Below, piece after piece: positions 113 through 11,529 of a stretch of DNA of 14,559 bases. The notes below the pieces were generated by a model that was given only the letters and a program-made list of their open reading frames with translations, was not told where the DNA came from and did not search any database. Position numbers and translations under genes: made by a program. The stretch is from the NCBI GenBank assembly GCA_001723855.1, contig MCBC01000021.1:1-14559 (forward strand). Direction: 5' to 3'. The DNA comes from Candidatus Altarchaeales archaeon WOR_SM1_86-2 (GTDB taxonomy: Archaea > Altiarchaeota > Altiarchaeia > IMC4 > MCBC01). Positions within the stretch are counted from its first letter, which is position 1, and every line of letters begins with the position of its first letter.

Positions 113-742
113 GTGGACAAAAAAGTTATGACAAAGGCGATTAAAGAAGCATTGGAGAAAGGGAAGAAAAGGAAATTTACCCAGTCCGTGGAGCTGGCAA
201 TAAATTTCAAAAATGTTAAAATAGAATCTGACGATAAATTAAATCTGACTCTTGTGCTGCCGAAGGGCAGGGGTAAAGATACCAGTATCGGGGTTTTTGC
301 GGAAGGGGACATGGCAGTTAGAGCCAAAAAGTTAACGAAGTATGTTCTCTCTGCAGCAGAAGTAAATGATTACACCAAGAGCAGGAGGAAGATGAGAAAG
401 TTCGCCGAATCCTGCGAATTCTTTGTGGCACAGCCGGATATGATGGCAAACATCGGAAAGAAGTGGGGTATTGTTCTCGGACCGAGGGGGAAGATGCCGC
501 AGCCGGTCCCGCCGACAGCAGACCTTGAGCCTGTTTTCAACAGATTAAAGGATACCGTGGCGGTAAGGTCCAAGAAAAACCCGACCGTTCACGTTCCCAT
601 CGGCACGGAAAACATGAGCCCCGGGGATCTGGCAGATAATGCTTTAGCGGCCCTGGATTCGTTAGAGCAGAAGATCATAAAGGATAAATTTGATTCCGTG
701 TATGTTAAGACAACGATGGGCGAGGCGGTGAAGGTTGAATAA
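113..742 (+). CDS. rpl1: 50S ribosomal protein L1 (uL1)
   Basis: This encodes archaeal ribosomal protein uL1, which binds 23S rRNA at the L1 stalk and helps release E-site tRNA. It can also act as a translational repressor in archaea. The 209-residue protein has the expected length. Family hallmarks are FTQSVEL near residue 23, LPKGRGKD near 49, and the highly conserved GIVLGPRGKMPQPVP near 120. It ends in YVKTTMGEAVKVE. The GTG start at 113 is preferred over ATG 128 because MDKKVMTKAIKEA aligns with the N-terminus of archaeal L1 (methanogen proteins begin MDREALLQAVKEA). The usual partners L11, L10 and L12 are not adjacent. An accessory island begins directly after the stop codon, and the last 132-180 bases of this gene recur twice downstream. 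Confidence 0.96.
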   Translation: MDKKVMTKAIKEALEKGKKRKFTQSVELAINFKNVKIESDDKLNLTLVLPKGRGKDTSIGVFAEGDMAVRAKKLTKYVLSAAEVNDYTKSRRKMRKFAESCEFFVAQPDMMANIGKKWGIVLGPRGKMPQPVPPTADLEPVFNRLKDTVAVRSKKNPTVHVPIGTENMSPGDLADNALAALDSLEQKIIKDKFDSVYVKTTMGEAVKVE

Positions 743-761
743 AAACTTTTATAAAAGTTTT
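742..761. terminator. AT-rich palindrome at the rpl1 stop codon
   Basis: AAAACTTTT, a two-base AT loop and AAAAGTTTT form a perfect 9-bp inverted repeat overlapping the rpl1 stop codon. It could mark transcription termination between the convergent rpl1 and STAND genes. The same sequence with small changes follows rpl1 3'-end copy 2, where a hairpin element interrupts it. It may therefore be a recombination or insertion site as much as a terminator. Confidence 0.4.
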
Positions 762-798
762 ATCAAAAGGTGCTATCTTCGCTTCGCTCGATAACACA

Positions 799-3540
799 TC
801 AAATTTTCTCGATTTTATTTAATATTTCCTCCGCCTTCTTAAGCGCAGGCACATACCCACACGAAGCCCGCTCTTTTGCAATTTCACCATGCTCCTCCGC
901 CTTCTCCGAATCCCCCGCATCTAAACAAAATTCCGCAAGGAAGTTGTGGATGTCCGCCTGCTTCAGCCGGTATTCGCAGCGGTCAGCAATCCCAAGGGCT
1001 TCCCGTGCAAACTTCAGCGATTCATCGTTGTGTCCCTGCCGCAAGCGGAGTTTAGCAAATCCTAAAAGAATGTCTGGCTCAGATTCAACGAGATTGATTT
1101 TCCTGTCGCGGGTTAATGCTTCGGTTAAATGCTTCTCTGCTTCGGTAAGATTTCCTTTCATGATGTAAGCGGCGCCGAGAAGGTATTCCGCTTGGATGAT
1201 GTCTCTTTCTAACTTATTGATATCTGCAAGTTCACGAGATTTTTTAGCGGAGGTGAGGGCTTCATCGGCGCTGGACATTAAGAGGGAGCGGATGGAGCGG
1301 TATGCAAGCACAATGGATACAAAATTAGTCTGAGTGGGACCATACTTGTCAAACACTTTTTGTGCTTTCACAAGTTCCTTCCCAGATTCCTCAAAATTTC
1401 CCCTGTAAGATAATAATCTACCGAGTTCCTGATTACTGACTGCTTCCATAAATTCATCATTAATCTCACGGCAGATTTCAATTCTACGCTTTAAGTTGGA
1501 TTCCGCGGCATCAAGTTCACCGAGTTTAATTTGATCAAGAGAGAGGTTGCCCAGACCGACAGCAATATTCTCCTTATCACCTGCTTTTTCCCTTAATTTA
1601 TTATGCATCTCCCGCAGTGACACTGCTCGTCTGGATCGACCTGAAAATGAATAAGAAGATCCAAGTGTATTCAGCGTCCATCCCTGATAGCGTTCATTTT
1701 TTAATTTCGGCGGTTTGTCTTCACCATCGGGAAATAAAGCACGAAGGAGTTCAATTATTGTTTGATATGCTCCAAATCTATAATGTAGTTGCTCGCCAAA
1801 CCTATCATAAAATAAATCACATGCCTCATCATACCTCTCCGCCCCAACCGTATGATAATACAACTCAATAACCGCCGCTAAATCGTCCACCGACTCAAAC
1901 TTCTCCGGCTCTGGAATTTCTTTAAAATAATCCCTGAGTTTAGAATGAACCCCCTTCTTATCAATTAACCGGTTATAACAGTAATTTCTCACAATAGGAT
2001 GCAGGTCAAATTTATTATGCTTTTCATCCCTGAACAATAAACCCCTGTTTGTAAGTTCAATCAAAACATCATTGAATTTTTCCTCGCTGTAAAAATCATT
2101 GAAAATTAATAATGAATTATAATCCATTGGGTTTCTGAATGCGGAAATTTTGCTGATTAACGCCCTCTTTTTGTCGTCAAGGGAGTCGTAGGCAAGTTCA
2201 AGGATGTGATGCTCTTTCGGGACTAACTCTGGGATAGGATTATGTCTCGTCCATGCTTTGATGTCGCCCGCGTATTTTGTGTCTTTAACAATCATGCCTG
2301 AGAGAAGACGAAGGCACAAAGGGTGGTAGCCGTGAGCACAGCAGACATCTTCAATTTCCGCTCTTGTTCCTTTAACGCCCTGTTTTATGAAGAATTCAAC
2401 GGCGTCTTCTTTGTTCATAACCTCTAAATTTACTCTCCGGCATCCTGCAATCCCCTCAAGTTCCTTAGGGAAAAGTCGGCTCGTAATCAGTATTTTGGTT
2501 TGAGGACAACCAGCAGAAAGCCTTTGAAGGAATTGAGCCGCATTCGGGTCAATACACGCCCTGAAATCCTGTTTTTCGTCTTCTTTTACAGCATCTCCTT
2601 TGTAAGGTGAGCCCATGCCTGCGTATGCTCTCAGAATCCGTTCAAGACCGTCAAGAACAAGGAAGAAATTTGAATTTTTGAATAAATCAAAAAAAGTTTG
2701 CATTTTATCCCATGTTGACCTTATCTCCTTTGGATTAATCTTTTTCCCGCTCGCGTAACTTATTGAATCATCCAGAAACTTCTCAAAACTTGACTTCTCA
2801 TCATAAAAAGACCACCAGAATACTCCGTCAAACTTCTTACCTTTCTTTAGTAAATCTTCATTAAGCCAGTACCATGACAAAGCTGATTTTCCCATCCCGC
2901 CAATCGCAGTCAATGCTAACATGGGAGTCGGGTCGTTTTCCAGCCATTCCGAAAGCAAATCCCGCTCTTTTTGCCTGCCGACAAAGTTTTCCTGCATCGG
3001 GTACGGGTGAGCAAAATACGGCTCAAGCATTATTCTTTTTTCAACTTTTTGAGTTTCTTCTTCACTCTTTTTGCTCAGTTTAACCATAAGTTTGGTTAAA
3101 TGCTCATCAACAATATCCTTGAAATTTTCATCCCCGTTGTAGCTCCACGCTAATCCTTCTTGAAACATAGAATCCCGGAAATTTATCACCTTTTCCATTT
3201 GCTTCAAGTCATCTGTAGTGTTGGGTGTGAATGGTTTTTGATTAAAGTAAAACATAATGTGTGGAGTGCCAAACTTTTTAAGGCAGTCAAAAGCAAGATT
3301 GAATTCCTCCTCAGTGCCAGATTCTGCTTCTCCTGTTGGAGTTCCAAACCTTTTCCACATGATGCCGATGAATATGTCGTAAGGTTCAATTTGCTTATTT
3401 ATAATCGCCTGGGGTCTGTCACCCATCTCAGGGATAACATTTTCCCAGCCCACGACTTTCAAATTAAATCCAAATTCATGTGCAATGCACTCGTTTATTT
3501 TATCAGCAATCTTTCGCAGGTGTTCTCTTTCCTTTGCCAC
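799..3540 (-). CDS. STAND NTPase: DUF4062 - NB-ARC - TPR (NLR-like)
   Basis: This is a 913-residue NLR-like signal-transduction ATPase. An N-terminal DUF4062 (TIR-like fold) domain covers residues 1-95, with YDIFIGIMWKRFGTPTG and SGTEEEF typical of the family. The NB-ARC module begins at FVGRQKERDLL (about 186-196). It has Walker A GGMGKS (214-219), Walker B FFLVLDGLE (292-300), the ITSR sensor (352-355) and a GYHPL motif (404-408). The C-terminal third is helical TPR-like repeats, presumably the sensor. Proteins of this build are often antiphage or programmed-death systems, but the family alone does not prove that. GTG 3540 is the first usable canonical start, yet homology continues upstream in frame (see 3541-3624). 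The gene converges on rpl1 with a 56-base gap. Confidence 0.88.
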   Translation of the reverse strand: MAKEREHLRKIADKINECIAHEFGFNLKVVGWENVIPEMGDRPQAIINKQIEPYDIFIGIMWKRFGTPTGEAESGTEEEFNLAFDCLKKFGTPHIMFYFNQKPFTPNTTDDLKQMEKVINFRDSMFQEGLAWSYNGDENFKDIVDEHLTKLMVKLSKKSEEETQKVEKRIMLEPYFAHPYPMQENFVGRQKERDLLSEWLENDPTPMLALTAIGGMGKSALSWYWLNEDLLKKGKKFDGVFWWSFYDEKSSFEKFLDDSISYASGKKINPKEIRSTWDKMQTFFDLFKNSNFFLVLDGLERILRAYAGMGSPYKGDAVKEDEKQDFRACIDPNAAQFLQRLSAGCPQTKILITSRLFPKELEGIAGCRRVNLEVMNKEDAVEFFIKQGVKGTRAEIEDVCCAHGYHPLCLRLLSGMIVKDTKYAGDIKAWTRHNPIPELVPKEHHILELAYDSLDDKKRALISKISAFRNPMDYNSLLIFNDFYSEEKFNDVLIELTNRGLLFRDEKHNKFDLHPIVRNYCYNRLIDKKGVHSKLRDYFKEIPEPEKFESVDDLAAVIELYYHTVGAERYDEACDLFYDRFGEQLHYRFGAYQTIIELLRALFPDGEDKPPKLKNERYQGWTLNTLGSSYSFSGRSRRAVSLREMHNKLREKAGDKENIAVGLGNLSLDQIKLGELDAAESNLKRRIEICREINDEFMEAVSNQELGRLLSYRGNFEESGKELVKAQKVFDKYGPTQTNFVSIVLAYRSIRSLLMSSADEALTSAKKSRELADINKLERDIIQAEYLLGAAYIMKGNLTEAEKHLTEALTRDRKINLVESEPDILLGFAKLRLRQGHNDESLKFAREALGIADRCEYRLKQADIHNFLAEFCLDAGDSEKAEEHGEIAKERASCGYVPALKKAEEILNKIEKI

Positions 3541-3624
3541 ATCGCCGGGGGAAGCTACAAATACTCTTACATTCTTGAGTATTTCCTCTGATCGCCTTCC
3601 AGAATCGTTTCCCTTAATGGAATA
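3541..3624 (-). other. In-frame DUF4062 N-terminal extension without a canonical start
   Basis: Read in the frame of the STAND gene, the bases before GTG 3540 encode SEEILKNVRVFVASPGD, which joins VAKEREHLRK. VFVASPGDV followed by KEREHLRK is the canonical first strand and helix of DUF4062. The frame is open back to a TAA at 3627-3625 but contains no ATG, GTG or TTG, only ATT (3618-3616) and ATA. An out-of-frame ATG at 3572-3570 is followed at once by TAA. Possible explanations are a non-AUG start, a small indel at the start codon, or an internal GTG start giving a shortened domain. Confidence 0.6.
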
Positions 3625-3727
3625 TTACAAGTTTTAGTTGTAATTGCCTATATTTCAACTTAATTATTATTTCAACCCTTAGAAATTAAAATACAATAAG
3701 CCATTAAATGTTTTTCCAGATATGTCA

Positions 3728-3913
3728 TTATGGTTTTGGAATATCAAGGTCTTTACAGATTTTGATTGCGAGTTTATCTACGATTTCAGTATGGCGAGGC
3801 ACAGATGTTGTTTTTCTGTTAGTGACATTATAGTAGATTGAATGTTTGGCACCTTCTCGCAGCAATTCGCATCCGTGCTTCCTTATATGTTTTAATAATA
3901 CACGACGCTTCAT
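3728..3913 (-). CDS. hicA: HicA-type mRNA interferase toxin
   Basis: This 61-residue protein belongs to the HicA family, double-stranded-RNA-binding-fold toxins that cleave mRNA. It has the full expected length. The pattern LLKHIRKHGCELLREGAKHSIYYN is typical, with the conserved catalytic histidine at about residue 24, and it ends in the usual SVPRHTEIVDKLAIKICKDLDI helix. It lies 6 bases downstream of hicB on the same strand, so the two are surely co-transcribed with antitoxin first. It sits in the first accessory cassette between the STAND gene and the second rpl1 3'-end copy. Nothing in the sequence suggests loss of function. Confidence 0.93.
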   Translation of the reverse strand: MKRRVLLKHIRKHGCELLREGAKHSIYYNVTNRKTTSVPRHTEIVDKLAIKICKDLDIPKP

Positions 3914-3919
3914 CGTTCA

Positions 3920-4141
3920 TCATACTGCTACTGACATCTCTTCGCGAATAACTTGATGATCTACAGTTTCACGCCGTGCCAACTCCCGGTTCGCTTCAAT
4001 AATCAACTGCACTGCTTCCTTCAGATTTTCTCGCGCTTCATCTAAAGTTCTGCCCTGTGTGTTTGCACCCGGCAGTTCTTCAACATATCCAATCCACCAG
4101 TCATCTACTTTCTCGAATACCGCAGTAAATTTATTCTCCAT
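3920..4141 (-). CDS. hicB: HicB-type antitoxin
   Basis: This 73-residue HicB-family protein has a partial RNase H-like fold and is expected to bind and block HicA. The core FTAVFEKVDDWWIGYVEELPG, followed by NTQGRTLDEARENLKEAVQLIIE, is the family hallmark. No C-terminal helix-turn-helix or ribbon-helix-helix follows, so self-repression by this subunit alone is uncertain. The gene ends in tandem TGA codons just before hicA. AT-rich stretches upstream (about 4148-4178) could supply a promoter. The rpl1 3'-end copy 2 begins about 58 bases upstream, so that repeat forms the far side of this operon's control region. Confidence 0.92.
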   Translation of the reverse strand: MENKFTAVFEKVDDWWIGYVEELPGANTQGRTLDEARENLKEAVQLIIEANRELARRETVDHQVIREEMSVAV

Positions 4142-4199
4142 TTTTTATTATTATATATTTGAAACATAAAAATATTATCGTTTTCTGCAGTATTTACAG

Positions 4200-4331
4200 A
4201 ATATGGACTCCGGGGATTTAACAGATAACGCTTTAGCGGCCCTGGATTCGTTAGAGCAGAAGATCATAAAGGATAAATTTGATTCCGTGTATGTTAAGAC
4301 AACGATGGGCGAGGCGGTGAGGGTTGAATAA
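4200..4331 (+). pseudogene. rpl1 3'-end copy 2
   Basis: This duplicates the last 43 sense codons and the stop codon of rpl1, in the same orientation (constant offset 3589 from rpl1 611-742). The frame is open and reads NMDSGDLTDNALAALDS through VRVE and stop. By eye the right part is almost identical to rpl1: two mismatches between 641-757 and 4230-4346, running past the stop into the following palindrome. The first 30 bases differ at about eight positions. It has no start codon or upstream half, so it cannot encode L1. It marks the boundary between the two accessory cassettes. Confidence 0.93.
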
Positions 4332-4335
4332 AAAT

Positions 4336-4520
4336 TTTTATAAAAGTATTCAATACAAGTTTGTTGTATTGAATGTGTCCCACACAAAGTGTAAGCCACA
4401 TTTTATCAAAAAGTGTGGAAGACACTATGTGTCTTACACGTGTCAGACATTTATGTCTGCCACATGCTATGCATAAAATCGCAAAGCGATTTTGGCACAT
4501 CAAAATCACTTCGTGATTTT
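4336..4520 (+). repeat. Multi-hairpin repeat array R1
   Basis: This is a run of six or seven closely packed inverted repeats. Stems are 4348-4358/4364-4374 (11 bp, perfect), 4382-4385/4389-4392, 4419-4425/4429-4435, 4444-4450/4453-4459, 4464-4467/4471-4474, 4475-4482/4486-4493 (8 bp) and 4502-4509/4513-4520 (8 bp). Linkers carry recurring gtgtc and ccacat motifs. The first 60 bases match the repeat before chorismate mutase (10012-10065). Relative to the rpl1-STAND junction at 742-797 the array looks inserted. It encodes no convincing protein and is not a CRISPR array, since units differ and spacers are absent. Confidence 0.8.
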
Positions 4521-4548
4521 GCTTGTCTTCGCTTCGCTCGATAACACA

Positions 4549-4674
4549 TCAAATTTTCTCGATTTTATTTAAGATTTTCTCTGCCTTATTTAGCGCTGGT
4601 ACATACCCGCACTCTGCCCGCTCTTTTGCAATCCCTACGTGTTCCTTTGCTTTCTCCAAATCCCTGGCATCTAA
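4549..4674 (-). pseudogene. Remnant of a second STAND/TPR gene (last 41 codons)
   Basis: On the minus strand this reads 41 codons plus TGA, matching the C-terminus of the STAND protein encoded at 799-3540. Both share the end GYVPAL-x-KAE-x-ILNKIEKI. By hand count 33 of 41 residues are identical. DNA similarity continues past the stop into the shared tcttcgcttcgctcgataac segment. Homology stops at about 4675, just before a GC-rich hairpin, and no other part of the gene remains. The whole rpl1-to-STAND junction was therefore present twice and the second STAND gene was almost completely deleted. Confidence 0.9.
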
Positions 4675-4680
4675 TGAACT

Positions 4681-4703
4681 ACCCCGGGGCAGAGCCCCGG
4701 GGT
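4681..4703. repeat. Perfect GC-rich hairpin
   Basis: Two 10-base arms, ACCCCGGGGC and GCCCCGGGGT, surround an AGA loop. The hairpin sits exactly between the truncated STAND remnant and the 3' end of the hepT-like gene. It could be a terminator for hepT or the scar of the deletion. It is far more GC-rich than its surroundings. Confidence 0.7.
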
Positions 4704-4716
4704 ATCATAATGAAAA

Positions 4717-5115
4717 TCAAAACTCCTCTAAGAATTTTTCAATTTCAGACCTTAATTCCTTGAAAGTATGTTCCAATCTTAAGAAGAGGTGCCTAAATCT
4801 TCCCCATTTGAGTTCAAAGCCATAGATGTGCCTGAACAGATGACGGAAACGCATATATTCTTTCAAAGTGCTCATAAATTCCGTGGTAATAACCTCACCT
4901 CTTACATCCTTCCATGGATCAGCCATCTGAACGAGGAGATCTGCATGCCAACTTTCACCTGCGGGCAAGTTTTCATCAACATTTACGGCAATTCTCTCAA
5001 AAATTTTCTCAACCCCGCAATAAAAATCATGGAGAATACTTCCCGCGGCTCTTGTTTCTACAAAACCAGGCGTATTATCTTTTTTTTCAAGTAATTCTTT
5101 TGCATCATTGAGCAA
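4717..5115 (-). CDS. HepT-like ribonuclease toxin, N-terminus interrupted
   Basis: The HEPN-fold toxin of a MntA-HepT pair. It carries the RX4HXY motif expected for HEPN nucleases, as RHLFRHIY at residues 91-98 of this frame. The preceding SILHDFYCGVEKIFERIA, a WH pair and the helical C-terminus resemble the HepT-like family rather than short DUF86 proteins. The frame listed starts at TTG 5115. The natural start is almost certainly ATG 5172, overlapping the mntA stop, but codon 9 from there (5148-5146) is TGA. Either the gene is recently inactivated, or a shortened product starts at a TTG or ATT. In this family MntA normally neutralises HepT by adding AMP groups to a tyrosine near the active site. 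Confidence 0.8.
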   Translation of the reverse strand: MLNDAKELLEKKDNTPGFVETRAAGSILHDFYCGVEKIFERIAVNVDENLPAGESWHADLLVQMADPWKDVRGEVITTEFMSTLKEYMRFRHLFRHIYGFELKWGRFRHLFLRLEHTFKELRSEIEKFLEEF

Positions 5116-5172
5116 TCTTTCAAGATTCTCTAATTCAAACTTAATTCATTCTTCAAGTTTATCTTTATCCAT
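5116..5172 (-). other. hepT N-terminal segment with in-frame TGA at codon 9
   Basis: ATG 5172-5170 lies in the hepT frame and overlaps the mntA stop (ATGGATAA), the usual coupling in such pairs. It reads MDKDKLEE, then TGA at 5148-5146, then IKFELENLER and on into the toxin. The residues on both sides of the TGA look like normal HepT N-terminal helix. A single C-to-T change from CGA (Arg) would explain it. Confidence 0.75.
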
Positions 5173-5461
5173 ATATGATTTCACCTTCCTGAATTGTCTT
5201 CTTTTTTAAACTTTCGTAAGCATCCTCAAAAGGAATGAGATTGAGTTCTACACCAGGCAGCAAGAGGTCATACAGTTCTGTGAGAGCTTTTATATACATC
5301 TCCGGATCCAACCCCTCAACCACAAGATCAATATCAGATTTAGCATGGATATGTCCTTTAACCACGGATCCGATCAAAAAGACCCTTCTGACATTGTAGT
5401 TATTCCTTAACACTTCTGCGCACTTCAAAGCCAACTTTTTCAGATCATCTCGTTTGTTCAT
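5165..5461 (-). CDS. mntA: MntA-type nucleotidyltransferase antitoxin
   Basis: This 98-residue minimal nucleotidyltransferase has the pol beta motif GSVVKGHIHAKSDIDLVV. Gly31-Ser32 and the metal-binding pair Asp43 and Asp45 are intact, and an acidic residue in VELNLIP (Glu72) is a candidate third ligand. Such proteins are antitoxins that AMPylate the partner HepT. The gene starts at ATG 5461 behind a good Shine-Dalgarno sequence. Its stop overlaps the hepT ATG, so the two are translationally coupled. It lies 45 bases from the third rpl1 3'-end copy. The antitoxin looks intact although its toxin carries a nonsense codon. Confidence 0.9.
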   Translation of the reverse strand: MNKRDDLKKLALKCAEVLRNNYNVRRVFLIGSVVKGHIHAKSDIDLVVEGLDPEMYIKALTELYDLLLPGVELNLIPFEDAYESLKKKTIQEGEIIYG

Positions 5462-5464
5462 GGT

Positions 5465-5470
5465 TCACCT
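5465..5470 (-). promoter_or_regulatory. Shine-Dalgarno of mntA
   Basis: AGGTGA, read on the minus strand, lies three bases before ATG 5461. It is one of the clearer ribosome-binding sites in the window, where most starts have only AT-rich leaders. Confidence 0.6.
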
Positions 5471-5506
5471 ATTGTTTTATAATTTTATTTCATTAAAATA
5501 AATAAA

Positions 5507-5686
5507 GCAAGGTCAAAGAAAAACCCGACCGTTCACGTTCCCATCGGCACGGAAGATATGAGCCCCGGGGATCTGGCAGATAATGCTTTAGCGGCCCTGG
5601 ATTCGGTAGAGCAGAAGATCACAAAGGATAAGTTTGATTCCATCTACGTTAAGACAACGATGGGCGAGGCGGTGAGGGTTGAATAA
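5507..5686 (+). pseudogene. rpl1 3'-end copy 3
   Basis: The longest duplicate of the rpl1 3' end, same orientation and no indels (constant offset 4944 from rpl1). From 5509 to 5691 I count ten mismatches against rpl1 565-747. The frame is open and reads RSKKNPTVHVPIGTEDMSPGD to VRVE and stop. Substitutions are conservative (Leu to Val, Val to Ile, Lys to Arg). Similarity ends at aaaac after the stop, and the sequence that follows differs from that after copies 1 and 2. This copy abuts the non-island chromosome, so it may be the original 3' end displaced by insertion. Confidence 0.95.
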
Positions 5687-5774
5687 AAACCCGATAATTA
5701 TCTAAGTTAGATCCTCTTTTTATAAAGAAATGTTGATAAATTTATAAACCATAAACATATATACAACAGATTAT

Positions 5775-6308
5775 TTAAAAATTTGGTATGGCGGGCGCTA
5801 TTACCCTGCTCACGTTGATTTCCTCCTCGTATAAATGCTCGTCATCTCCAAGGAGATATATGCGGCTTCCTTCAATTCTCACTTCATTTTTGTCTGAAAC
5901 GAGAATATAGATTGCCTGGTCAATGTCACAGCTCTGCGGTGTCTTTAGCGCCGGTTGGGAAAACGGCTTAGGAACATCTTTAAATGTAAGCGATGAGTCA
6001 AGATAACAGCTCTCGTTTTCTTTTATGTAGGAATAAACGTATTCTGGAGAGCCTTCCGAACTGCTCAGCACACCAATAGCATGATAAAGCGCCTGTGTCC
6101 CATTAAAACTCTTTGGGTAATCCCTTGCAATTATCCTGCCGTCCCATATTATGTTTATCTCGTAAGAATCGGCTACGATATCTCTGATCTTTGACATGTT
6201 TTCAGGGTAGGTTACATCGCCAGAATCACCGCGTGTATCAAGGAGACAGCCCGCAACGAATCCCACGGCAATAACCAGTGCGATTATTATGATGTTTTTA
6301 TTGTCCAT
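5775..6308 (-). CDS. Putative lipoprotein of unknown function
   Basis: A 177-residue protein with a charged start, a hydrophobic stretch (residues 6-17) and a lipobox-like VAGC ending at Cys21. It is probably anchored outside the membrane by a lipid. The remaining 155 residues are hydrophilic and mixed alpha/beta, with three cysteines after the lipobox that could form a disulfide. I do not recognise the family. It starts 6 bases after the eL21 stop on the same strand and is likely co-transcribed with rpl21e, although the two have no obvious functional link. Confidence 0.75.
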   Translation of the reverse strand: MDNKNIIIIALVIAVGFVAGCLLDTRGDSGDVTYPENMSKIRDIVADSYEINIIWDGRIIARDYPKSFNGTQALYHAIGVLSSSEGSPEYVYSYIKENESCYLDSSLTFKDVPKPFSQPALKTPQSCDIDQAIYILVSDKNEVRIEGSRIYLLGDDEHLYEEEINVSRVIAPAIPNF

Positions 6309-6314
6309 CTTATC

Positions 6315-6599
6315 CTATTTCAATCCAACCAGATGCTCTGGCGTCACCAGAATCCTCTTCTCCTTGTTCTTATCTTTAATCTCGATATAATATGCTCTTC
6401 CCTGGCGGCCGACAACCCTTCCGCTCTTGCCCCTGAATCTCGGGTGTGGAATTGCCTGGAAACTCGGGTTTATAGCGATCGAAACCATGTCGCCCTCATT
6501 AAACTCCTGCAGGTATTGCTTTATCTTCACCTTCCCCCTGTCCCTGGTCTCCACCCTTAAATTCCGAGTTTTGTGCCTATATCCTTTTGAACCTTTCAT
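6315..6599 (-). CDS. rpl21e: 50S ribosomal protein L21e (eL21)
   Basis: A 94-residue archaeal/eukaryotic-type ribosomal protein of the large subunit. It has the characteristic KGSKGYRHKTRNL start, the HPRFRGKSGRVVGRQGRAYYIEI core and a VTPEHLVGLK tail. The length is as expected. The start ATG 6599 lies about 30 bases after a TATA-like box (6625-6633), so the transcript may be leaderless. A lipoprotein gene follows 6 bases after the stop. Confidence 0.97.
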   Translation of the reverse strand: MKGSKGYRHKTRNLRVETRDRGKVKIKQYLQEFNEGDMVSIAINPSFQAIPHPRFRGKSGRVVGRQGRAYYIEIKDKNKEKRILVTPEHLVGLK

Positions 6600-9249: not shown

Positions 9250-9266
9250 TATTATCGTCTCTTTCC

Positions 9267-9391
9267 ATAAACTTGGAATGTGACTGACCTTTGGTCAGAC
9301 ATGTGGCCGAGCTTCGCTCGGACACACTCGGGAGCTTCGCTCCCGCGTGCACTCGGAACTGAAAGTTCCGCGTGCTTTGTTCCAAGTTTAT
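9267..9391 (-). repeat. Nested multi-hairpin element R2
   Basis: A perfect 12-bp outer inverted repeat (9267-9278 with 9380-9391) encloses four perfect hairpins with three-base loops. Their stems are 9284-9289/9293-9298, 9307-9312/9316-9321, 9329-9335/9339-9345 and 9354-9360/9364-9370. Two loops are TTC and one is GAA. Linkers such as acatgtgg and cgtgcact recall those of R1. The fold would be a multi-branched structure of about 125 nt. It lies directly upstream of the 427-residue protein gene. It may be a structured leader, a small RNA or a non-autonomous mobile repeat. Confidence 0.8.
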
Positions 9392-9399
9392 TTTTGATT

Positions 9400-9418
9400 A
9401 AACTTTTTTTAAAAGTTT
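9400..9418. repeat. AT-rich palindrome beside R2
   Basis: AAACTTTT and AAAAGTTT flank a TTT loop. This resembles the palindrome at the rpl1 stop codon and the sequences bordering R1 and R3, which links R2 to the same repeat family. Confidence 0.5.
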
Positions 9419-9952: not shown

Positions 9953-10011
9953 TTTGATGTTTATTTTATAATAATCCCAAGATATAAATAAAAAACTTTT
10001 TAGAAAAAAGT

Positions 10012-10065
10012 ATTCATTACAACATAGTTGTAATGAATGTGTCTTACACGAAGTGTAAGCCACAT
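10012..10065 (+). repeat. Two-hairpin repeat R3
   Basis: A perfect 12-bp hairpin (10012-10023/10027-10038, loop ATA) is followed by a 7-bp hairpin CTTACAC-GAA-GTGTAAG (10043-10059) inside an outer ATGTG/CACAT pair. It matches the first 55 bases of R1 with compensating changes in the stem. It sits between flanks resembling AAACTTTTTATAAAAG and TTTTATCAAAAA, as in R1. It ends 16 bases before the chorismate mutase ATG. A TATA-like ATATAAATA at 9982-9990 would start transcription close to its left edge, so it may form the gene's leader. Confidence 0.8.
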
Positions 10066-10081
10066 TTAATCAAAAACTTAA

Positions 10082-11262: not shown

Positions 11263-11529
11263 TTATCCGGATTTGAATGGTTTTGATACAACATTATTCC
11301 TTTCATCCGCCTCATCAATCAGATCATCTGGATCAACAACCACCATTATCGTATAATTCCCTTCTTTTGCAATCCAATTGAAACTTACATCTTTCTCTGC
11401 TTTAGATGCTAAATTTAAAACTTTATAATCCTCAAAGATTAAGGAGTAAATATCAAGGATTGCGACTTTCTGATTCTTCTTTTGTAATGTTGTTAATCCA
11501 TAGTTGCATTGAGTATTCCAGTAAAACAA
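11263..11529 (-). pseudogene. CARDB-domain gene fragment
   Basis: This minus-strand frame of 88 codons ends in VSFNWIAKEGNYTIMVVVDP and then DLIDEADERNN. That is the typical C-terminal half of a CARDB (cell-adhesion-like, beta-sandwich) domain found in archaeal surface proteins. There is no signal peptide and no ATG, only a TTG shortly after stop codons, and the domain is incomplete. It lies opposite the neighbouring genes and 15 bases past the end of DUF58. It is best read as a degraded remnant of a larger surface-protein gene. A short expressed protein cannot be excluded. Confidence 0.55.

Follow-up and report, generated by a model that had tools for sequence, protein, structure and literature searches.

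We analysed a window of 14,559 nucleotides (positions 1 to 14,559 of contig MCBC01000021.1, assembly GCA_001723855.1) from Candidatus Altarchaeales archaeon WOR_SM1_86-2, a member of the Altiarchaeota, in which the 3′ end of rpl1, the gene of ribosomal protein L1, occurs three times and frames two cassettes of toxin–antitoxin and defence-type genes. The working gene occupies 113..742 on the plus strand (Pfam Ribosomal_L1, 3.8e-45), and its last part, 565-742, belongs to the first copy of the repeated end (copy 1, 565..747). The other two, also on the plus strand, lie at 4200..4346 (copy 2) and 5509..5691 (copy 3). Copies 1 and 3 align without gaps at 94.5% identity, with 10 mismatches in 182 bases (565-746 against 5509-5690) or 11 in 183 when base 747 is included. 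The part of copy 1 from 611 onward recurs as copy 2, again without gaps, with 10 mismatches between 611-757 and 4200-4346 and an identity of 92.7% when 611-761 is compared with 4200-4350. All three copies retain the rpl1 reading frame and its stop codon, and the end of the target gene is thus regenerated. The original prediction, made from the letters of the DNA, had described this arrangement, including the ten mismatches, the shorter second copy and the retained frame and stop codon, and the alignments confirm it. BLAST E-values of 8e-63, 1e-48 and 1e-39 for the repeats within the window exclude a chance origin.

Between the copies, both cassettes are read from the minus strand. Unit 1 comprises a STAND-type ATPase of 913 residues with a DUF4062-like N-terminus, an NB-ARC-like region and TPRs (799..3540; PADLOC PDC-S60, 5.1e-36), a HicA-like toxin (3728..3913; Pfam HicA_toxin, 2.1e-7) and a HicB-like antitoxin (3920..4141; Pfam UPF0150, 1.4e-6, and HicB_lk_antitox, 3.1e-4, under its cut-off). 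Unit 2 comprises a remnant of a STAND 3′ end (4526..4674, 84.6% identical to 776-924), a HepT-like gene (4717..5115; Pfam HepT-like_2, 6.5e-33) and an MntA-like nucleotidyltransferase (5165..5461; Pfam Polbeta, 2.2e-12). The partners are adjacent in both the HicBA and the MntA-HepT pair, and the Pfam and PADLOC matches bear out the cargo that had been named beforehand. The unit 1 ATPase has the make-up of a STAND anti-phage ATPase (P-loop NTPase core, sensor repeats and N-terminal effector), from which a role in defence is predicted; its GGxGKSA motif is invariant in all nine aligned sequences, the TPRs are present, and DUF4062 scores marginally above its cut-off. Its first standard start, GTG 3540, falls after the first strand shared with homologues, and the frame is open back to a TAA at 3627-3625. 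The intervening 3625-3540 encodes the NVRVFVASPGD stretch common to homologues, yet has no ATG, GTG or TTG after that TAA. In unit 2, the HepT frame from ATG 5172 runs into a TGA at 5148-5146, and the listed open reading frame (ORF) begins further in.

The left borders of the repeats are unequal, 565 in one case and about 611 in the other, which would not suit one crossover site unless the elements brought unequal lengths of extra rpl1. At 4199 and 5508, the junctions show no extended overlap with rpl1, and the sequence after copy 3 is unrelated to that after copies 1 and 2. Copies 1 and 2, by comparison, also share what follows the stop codon: a junction block from the rpl1 stop to the STAND end (748..798) is common to units 1 and 2, and the segment 776-924, a STAND 3′ end, has its counterpart at 4526-4674, exact over its first part (776-822 equals 4526-4572, 0 mismatches in 47 bases) and with 23 mismatches in the 102 bases of 823-924.

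Copy 1 is a mosaic of the other two. Up to 640 it is nearer to copy 3, with 2 differences from copy 3 and 8 from copy 2 over 611-640, and from 641 it is nearer to copy 2, with 7 differences from copy 3 and 1 from copy 2 over 641-742; counted from its left border, 3 of its mismatches to copy 3 fall in 565-640. Eight of the 11 mismatches between copies 1 and 2 over 611-761 are crowded into 613-640 and are followed by 91 identical bases, a run that random placement of the mismatches rarely matches (p 1e-4, 20,000 placements). Bar a small-hairpin array in unit 2, the two units are near-identical over 641-822, with about 27% and 22.5% divergence on either flank. Such a stretch is what recombination between the copies would leave, and the pattern fits recent recombination between old, related units better than recent tandem duplication. 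In a common alignment, the unit 2 STAND remnant stands at a distance of 0.29 from the unit 1 STAND and of 0.32-0.38 from five STAND ends of other genomes, and the unit 1 STAND end at 0.22-0.30 from the same five. A protein collection contains a 42-residue ORF (3,688-base contig, 4 members) with the copy-2-specific start MDSGDLT but with K207, the copy 1 residue, unlike the letters of the window; its cluster may contain the window's own copy 2. Since K207 stands in a copy-2-like frame, the rpl1-end copies seem to vary between strains.

We then asked which of the ends is the original one. The closest rpl1 homologue, P0001, is 85% identical and lies on an 859-base contig; the named organisms among 120 listed homologues are all Altiarchaeota. 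Copies 1 and 3 differ at five residues, where copy 3 has D167, V184, T189, I196 and R207, P0001 has D, V, T, M and R, and copy 1 has N, L, I, V and K. Copy 3 therefore agrees with P0001 at 4 of the 5 and copy 1 at none. The residues of copy 1 are also unusual in the wider set, L184 being present in 1 of the 120 homologues and I189 in 0. Copy 3 as a mere dead duplicate is disfavoured because the working gene, and not copy 3, is the odd one. From these few residues and the alignment, copy 3 (5509..5691) is likely the original rpl1 end, displaced, and copy 1 the incoming end, as had been proposed; the proposal that the cassettes came as insertions is likewise supported. The original downstream side of rpl1 would then be 5692..6599, with orf177 and the gene of ribosomal protein L21e. 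In the rpl1 regions fetched from other Altiarchaeota (27 of 28), the adjacency of rpl1 to the sequence at 5692 was not found, and the sole other window gene matched there was a DUF433-like gene, in two regions.

The original prediction had gone further and treated rpl1 as a landing pad used repeatedly by integrative elements. The gene is carried by 28 of 29 Altiarchaeota genomes, none closer than 63% to the window's rpl1, and its end is single in 27 of the 29 and was not found in the remaining two. A dedicated landing pad of site-specific elements is unsupported, because the same kind of scar occurs at unrelated genes and at 5′ ends, and it is replaced by a more general displacement of gene ends. 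Nor is a ribosomal-protein gene an unusual target, as had been thought, at least in bacteria, where rplL, rpmE, rpmG and rpsI are named as 3′-end targets (PMC5704250).

The wider occurrence of the scar was surveyed in 1.33 Mb of DNA from two relatives, about 0.93 Mb from WOR_SM1_SCG (G362) and 400 kb from IMC4 (G278), both recognised by identical proteins. Repeats of at least 60 bp and at least 80% identity, 250-10,000 bp apart, were kept, and pairs inside one ORF were dropped; a one-end event has one copy at the end of an ORF of at least 100 residues and the other copy orphaned. The filter left 34 direct repeats (20 one-end, 1 both-ends and 7 mid-gene) and 4 inverted ones (1 one-end and 3 mid-gene), and one-end repeats are biased towards the direct orientation, 20 against 1 (p 1e-5). 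By reading of the list, 3′ ends account for 12 of the 20 events and 5′ ends for the other 8. In 19 of the 20 events the orphan is placed outward of the gene end, a count that is partly forced, since within-ORF pairs were dropped. Host genes were named for nine events and include uvrA, pheS, purB, a guaA-type GMP synthase gene, pstB and gatB, together with RuBisCO-like, isopropylmalate-synthase-type and prephenate dehydrogenase genes. The repeats vary from 66 to 250 bp and the 22 listed inserts from 117 to 5,149 bp. Elsewhere, 278 kb of loci from other Altiarchaeota gave three one-end pairs, all at one locus (L089), and 42 kb of loci from Theionarchaea and Thermococci gave none. After the survey, an event at a contig end (L174) was dropped, the mid-gene pairs at L085 and L158 were added by hand to the codon test described below, and L170 was used for cargo and hairpins only; four other mid-gene pairs were left unused. 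A comparison of outer-neighbour synteny for 18 events, on partial data, found nothing.

Toxin–antitoxin or defence-type genes are present in 11 of the 22 inserts, among them a HEPN-MNT pair, ParE (three), PIN, HicA, an AAA_21/DUF4276 pair, two TIR-domain proteins, a Schlafen AlbA_2 protein and two DNA methylases. These names come from a Pfam scan of 39 of 47 cargo ORFs, 20 of them run singly, and in one batch from the 25 of 62 families listed. One event is serial and resembles the window: the gatB 5′ end occurs in three copies, the working gene included, around a 1,051-residue N6-methylase-domain protein (WOR_SM1_SCG C267, L085 3466-8748), and a 30-bp upstream segment is repeated as well. The process extends beyond rpl1: at many genes of at least one relative, toxin–antitoxin, defence and other genes separate the working end from its displaced counterpart. 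At another WOR_SM1_SCG locus (C229, L160 11126-12344), nested direct repeats, 76 bp inside 131 bp, surround a ParE toxin pair like an insertion within an insertion.

The association of toxin genes with direct repeats was also counted from the side of the toxins, in 1.69 Mb (887 kb of WOR_SM1_SCG, 400 kb of IMC4 and 400 kb of a third genome, G227) and with a looser filter (45 bp, 75%) that may take in paralogue repeats. Direct repeats enclose 10 of 29 ParE, HicA and PIN genes against 1.5 expected from coverage (p 1e-6), and inverted repeats 1 of 29 against 0.23 expected; because the families were picked after the cargo had been seen, the enrichment is partly circular and is indicative. In a 242-kb control from E. 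coli, one toxin of 10, yafQ, is enclosed by direct repeats, those around rayT, and one, higB, by inverted repeats. G227 yielded a single HicA gene, which sits between 73-bp direct repeats of 83.6% identity.

If an orphan were a dead copy of the working end, its mismatches would fall on the three codon positions in a way that differs from the divergence of two working alleles. Across 21 events outside the window, the working end and the orphan differ by 27, 16 and 75 mismatches on codon positions 1, 2 and 3, 118 in 2,490 coding bases. The third-position share of 75/118 exceeds one third (p 2e-11) and also exceeds the roughly 45% of a hand estimate for pairs of one dead and one working copy (p 4e-5), with the mismatches pooled and taken as independent; in the ungapped events it is 45/70 (p 9e-4 against roughly 45%). 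A recount gave the same codon totals. Because mismatches favour third positions, the divergence probably arose while both ends were part of working genes, which would be expected had one of them come from another strain.

An empty site was sought at one locus across genomes, pstB-phoU, picked because the two genes are a known operon pair. In WOR_SM1_SCG a distance of 1,969 bp separates them, and the segment made up of the orphan pstB end and its flank reaches to within 12 bases of the phoU ORF. They are adjacent in all 14 other Altiarchaeota genomes that carry both on one contig, with gaps of 4-314 bp; at the limits used, only a pstB-like match was obtained in two genomes and only a phoU match in one. 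Therefore, the WOR_SM1_SCG orphan is the original pstB end beside its original neighbour. At this one locus the displaced end thus stands beyond the cargo at its old neighbour, and at rpl1 the residues suggest the same. The expectation of an empty site at rpl1 is supported by pstB-phoU, in a related genome, by analogy only.

Taken together, we consider it the more probable account, with moderate confidence, that the rpl1 copies are scars of a homology-anchored, integrase-free insertion that displaced the resident gene end. DNA from a related strain, with its own rpl1 3′ end and an immune cassette, would have recombined by homology inside rpl1, and the far end of the incoming DNA would have been attached at a non-homologous joint within the resident rpl1. 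In this way the incoming 3′ end (copy 1) would have become part of the working gene, leaving the resident end (copy 3) stranded past the cargo at its old neighbour. More than one round would be needed, copy 2 deriving from an earlier related unit, and the copies would later have exchanged sequence by recombination. It is observed that the rpl1 end occurs three times, that copy 1 changes its likeness partway along, that repeats in two relatives are biased towards the direct orientation and diverge as alleles do, and that one site, pstB-phoU, is empty in other genomes; from this we infer how the DNA was joined, in what order events took place at rpl1 and that the cargo originated in related strains. 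It is the homology class as a whole that is favoured, as a homologous joint combined with a non-homologous one and a single crossover of a circle carrying one gene end give the same picture.

Several results weigh against this account. No strain was read with an empty rpl1 site or with different cargo among the 29 Altiarchaeota genomes, none of them above 63% identity in rpl1. Most of the general evidence comes from one single-cell genome, WOR_SM1_SCG, with 18 of the 20 one-end events against 2 in the 400 kb of IMC4, and one empty site was tested; the 400 kb of G227 held no event of the expected geometry. The toxin count is similarly uneven, with 8 of 15 genes between direct repeats in WOR_SM1_SCG, 1 of 13 in IMC4 and 1 of 1 in G227. 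Eleven of the 22 listed inserts contain no nameable toxin–antitoxin or defence-type gene, but radical SAM or acetyltransferase genes, a gene read by eye as secF, ORFs without a name, or no ORF. The codon-position counts of rpl1 itself, 3:2:5, show a weak third-position bias, and the identities to P0001 (48/58 for copy 1, 52/58 for copy 3 and 134/151 for the N-terminal part) do not set copy 1 significantly apart from the N-terminal part (Fisher p 0.26). Finally, homology-facilitated illegitimate recombination is described as quite rare where it was measured (PMC5361080).

Within the same class, the cassettes could be mobile units in themselves, for which an end borrowed from a host gene serves as a portable site of attachment, a possibility that we regard as unlikely. 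Recombination between the flanking copies would free a cassette as a circle with one gene end, and the circle would home by homologous recombination alone to the same gene in a related cell, regenerating that gene. If this were true, any core gene end would be usable and an immune cassette would be mobile without an integrase; the exchange between copies 1 and 2 and the K207 variant of copy 2 would be traces of such traffic.

Site-specific integration seems less likely still. The units would be remnants of integrative elements, resembling cis-mobilizable elements (CIMEs), with the integrase lost or acting in trans and with tandem accretion at an attachment core in rpl1. Exact stretches common to copies 1-3, such as 641-661 and 704-731, could be such a core. 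Streptococcal ribosomal-protein 3′ ends are targets of this kind, and accretion of decayed elements is described (PMC5704250); 14 of 68 thaumarchaeal elements lie in the 3′-distal parts of protein genes (PMC6563490). However, no integrase, transposase or phage integration family is among those listed for 39 of the 65 window ORFs of at least 50 residues (Pfam; 31 also against PHROGs; the best 25 of 26 families listed for one batch), in keeping with the visible absence of an integrase remarked on earlier, and no transfer genes are among them. The unequal left borders also speak against it, as does the single rpl1 end in 27 of 29 Altiarchaeota genomes, with no second end found in the other two. 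One such enzyme cannot account for scars at unrelated genes and 5′ ends, with repeats of 66-250 bp and no fixed length.

Somewhat lower again we place a local duplication in tandem, or an insertion that generated a very long target-site duplication, with the orphan copy decaying afterwards. The repeats are direct and close, and copies 1 and 2 have a common downstream junction block, both as such duplication would leave them. Alone, however, it cannot produce copy 3, whose downstream neighbour differs; the residues of the nearest relative are kept in the orphan and not in the working end; and the third-position bias over 21 events speaks against copying followed by decay. Over 823-924 the STAND ends of the two units are 22.5% apart, and in the alignment that puts them at a distance of 0.29, the unit 1 end is 0.22-0.30 from five ends of other genomes. 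Very improbable is an artefact, whether a chimeric assembly of strain variants or chimeras in WOR_SM1_SCG, which was amplified by multiple displacement amplification (PMC4975002): one event at 100% identity (L167) and the contig-end event (L174) could be artefacts, but most copies are several percent apart with a coding-type bias, unlike chimeras formed during amplification, which are copied from a single template, a long rpl1 overlap is lacking at the 4199 and 5508 junctions, a variant copy-2 ORF lies on a 3,688-base contig, and two events are in IMC4.

Other features of the window and of the cargo families add detail. The window holds 16 small hairpins against 0-6 in ten first-order randomisations, and these form intergenic arrays at 4335-4540, in the unit 2 junction block, and at 9262-9400 and 9995-10076, with stems of 7-12 bp and loops of 3-5 nt; 4335-4412 and 9999-10076 are 85% alike, and the arrays have no Rfam match. 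The same hairpin scan found a perfect G+C hairpin, TACCCCGGGGC-aga-GCCCCGGGGTA, at 4680..4704 between the STAND remnant and the HepT gene. A terminal hairpin had seemed by eye to mark the element end in several WOR_SM1_SCG inserts, and this idea was rejected when a G+C hairpin was found within 110 bp of the insert end in 1 of 20 events, in a count that left out L106 and L167 and sought no other insert-end motif. No tRNA gene and no Rfam family was found in the window. A short CARDB-domain ORF at 11263-11529 is possibly the leftover of a larger surface protein.

Relatives of the STAND protein were found in 2 of 29 Altiarchaeota genomes, with four matches in WOR_SM1_SCG, and among the 394 genomes nearest to WOR_SM1_SCG one has a STAND match at E <1e-120. 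A search of IMG/VR with the STAND protein, the rpl1 end and HepT gave no real relative, one match spanning 14 residues only, and a plasmid search gave only 3 weak cyanobacterial matches to STAND (26-38% identity). Stranded 3′ ends of this STAND family occur at G348:C19 (L088 268-594 and 2685-2848) and WOR_SM1_SCG C247 (L087 714-851), with no long STAND frame alongside in the DNA fetched.

We now compare these scars with known systems. Integron cassette arrays also arise by serial addition of small toxin–antitoxin cassettes; here, in contrast, the repeats are coding gene ends, and no search for IntI or attC with dedicated models was made. Integrated elements of Thaumarchaeota as a rule carry an integrase or a casposase, whereas neither was found in the window. 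Those elements, tandem casposons included, share with the window an archaeal host, insertion at protein-gene 3′ ends and tandem arrangement, and their attachment-site or target-site-duplication repeats are described as generally short, compared with 66-250 bp here (PMC6563490). Integrative mobilizable elements (IMEs) and CIMEs in rplL, rpmE, rpmG and rpsI likewise regenerate a ribosomal-protein 3′ end, stack in tandem by accretion and include decayed members without an integrase (PMC5704250); unlike them, the present units show a variable repeat length, no apparent fixed core and, among the families seen, no recombinase and no transfer genes. Known site-specific elements at ribosomal-protein genes or archaeal protein-gene 3′ ends need a recombinase and a fixed core. 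There is also a likeness to the arrays of orphan immunity genes of the Vibrio type VI secretion system and to orphan Rhs ends, for which homology-facilitated illegitimate recombination was proposed: a homologous anchor, a non-homologous far end, an old part pushed downstream, serial arrays and no integrase known (PMC5361080). The displaced parts described there belong to the toxin locus itself (PMC5361080), whereas the anchors here are unrelated housekeeping genes, the cargo often consists of toxin–antitoxin or defence genes, and displacement affects 5′ as well as 3′ ends, at many loci in an archaeon.

In the open-access literature searched, we found no description of the gene-end scar pattern. 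Small toxin–antitoxin and defence genes that lack integrases seem here to leave a readable scar of their movement between genomes, the displaced end of the gene beside which they landed; it gives the orientation of each insertion, separates resident from incoming alleles, and any genome can be scanned for it. The same scar at other genes of related archaea suggests that gene sets are inserted there by ordinary DNA recombination, with the old gene end pushed aside.

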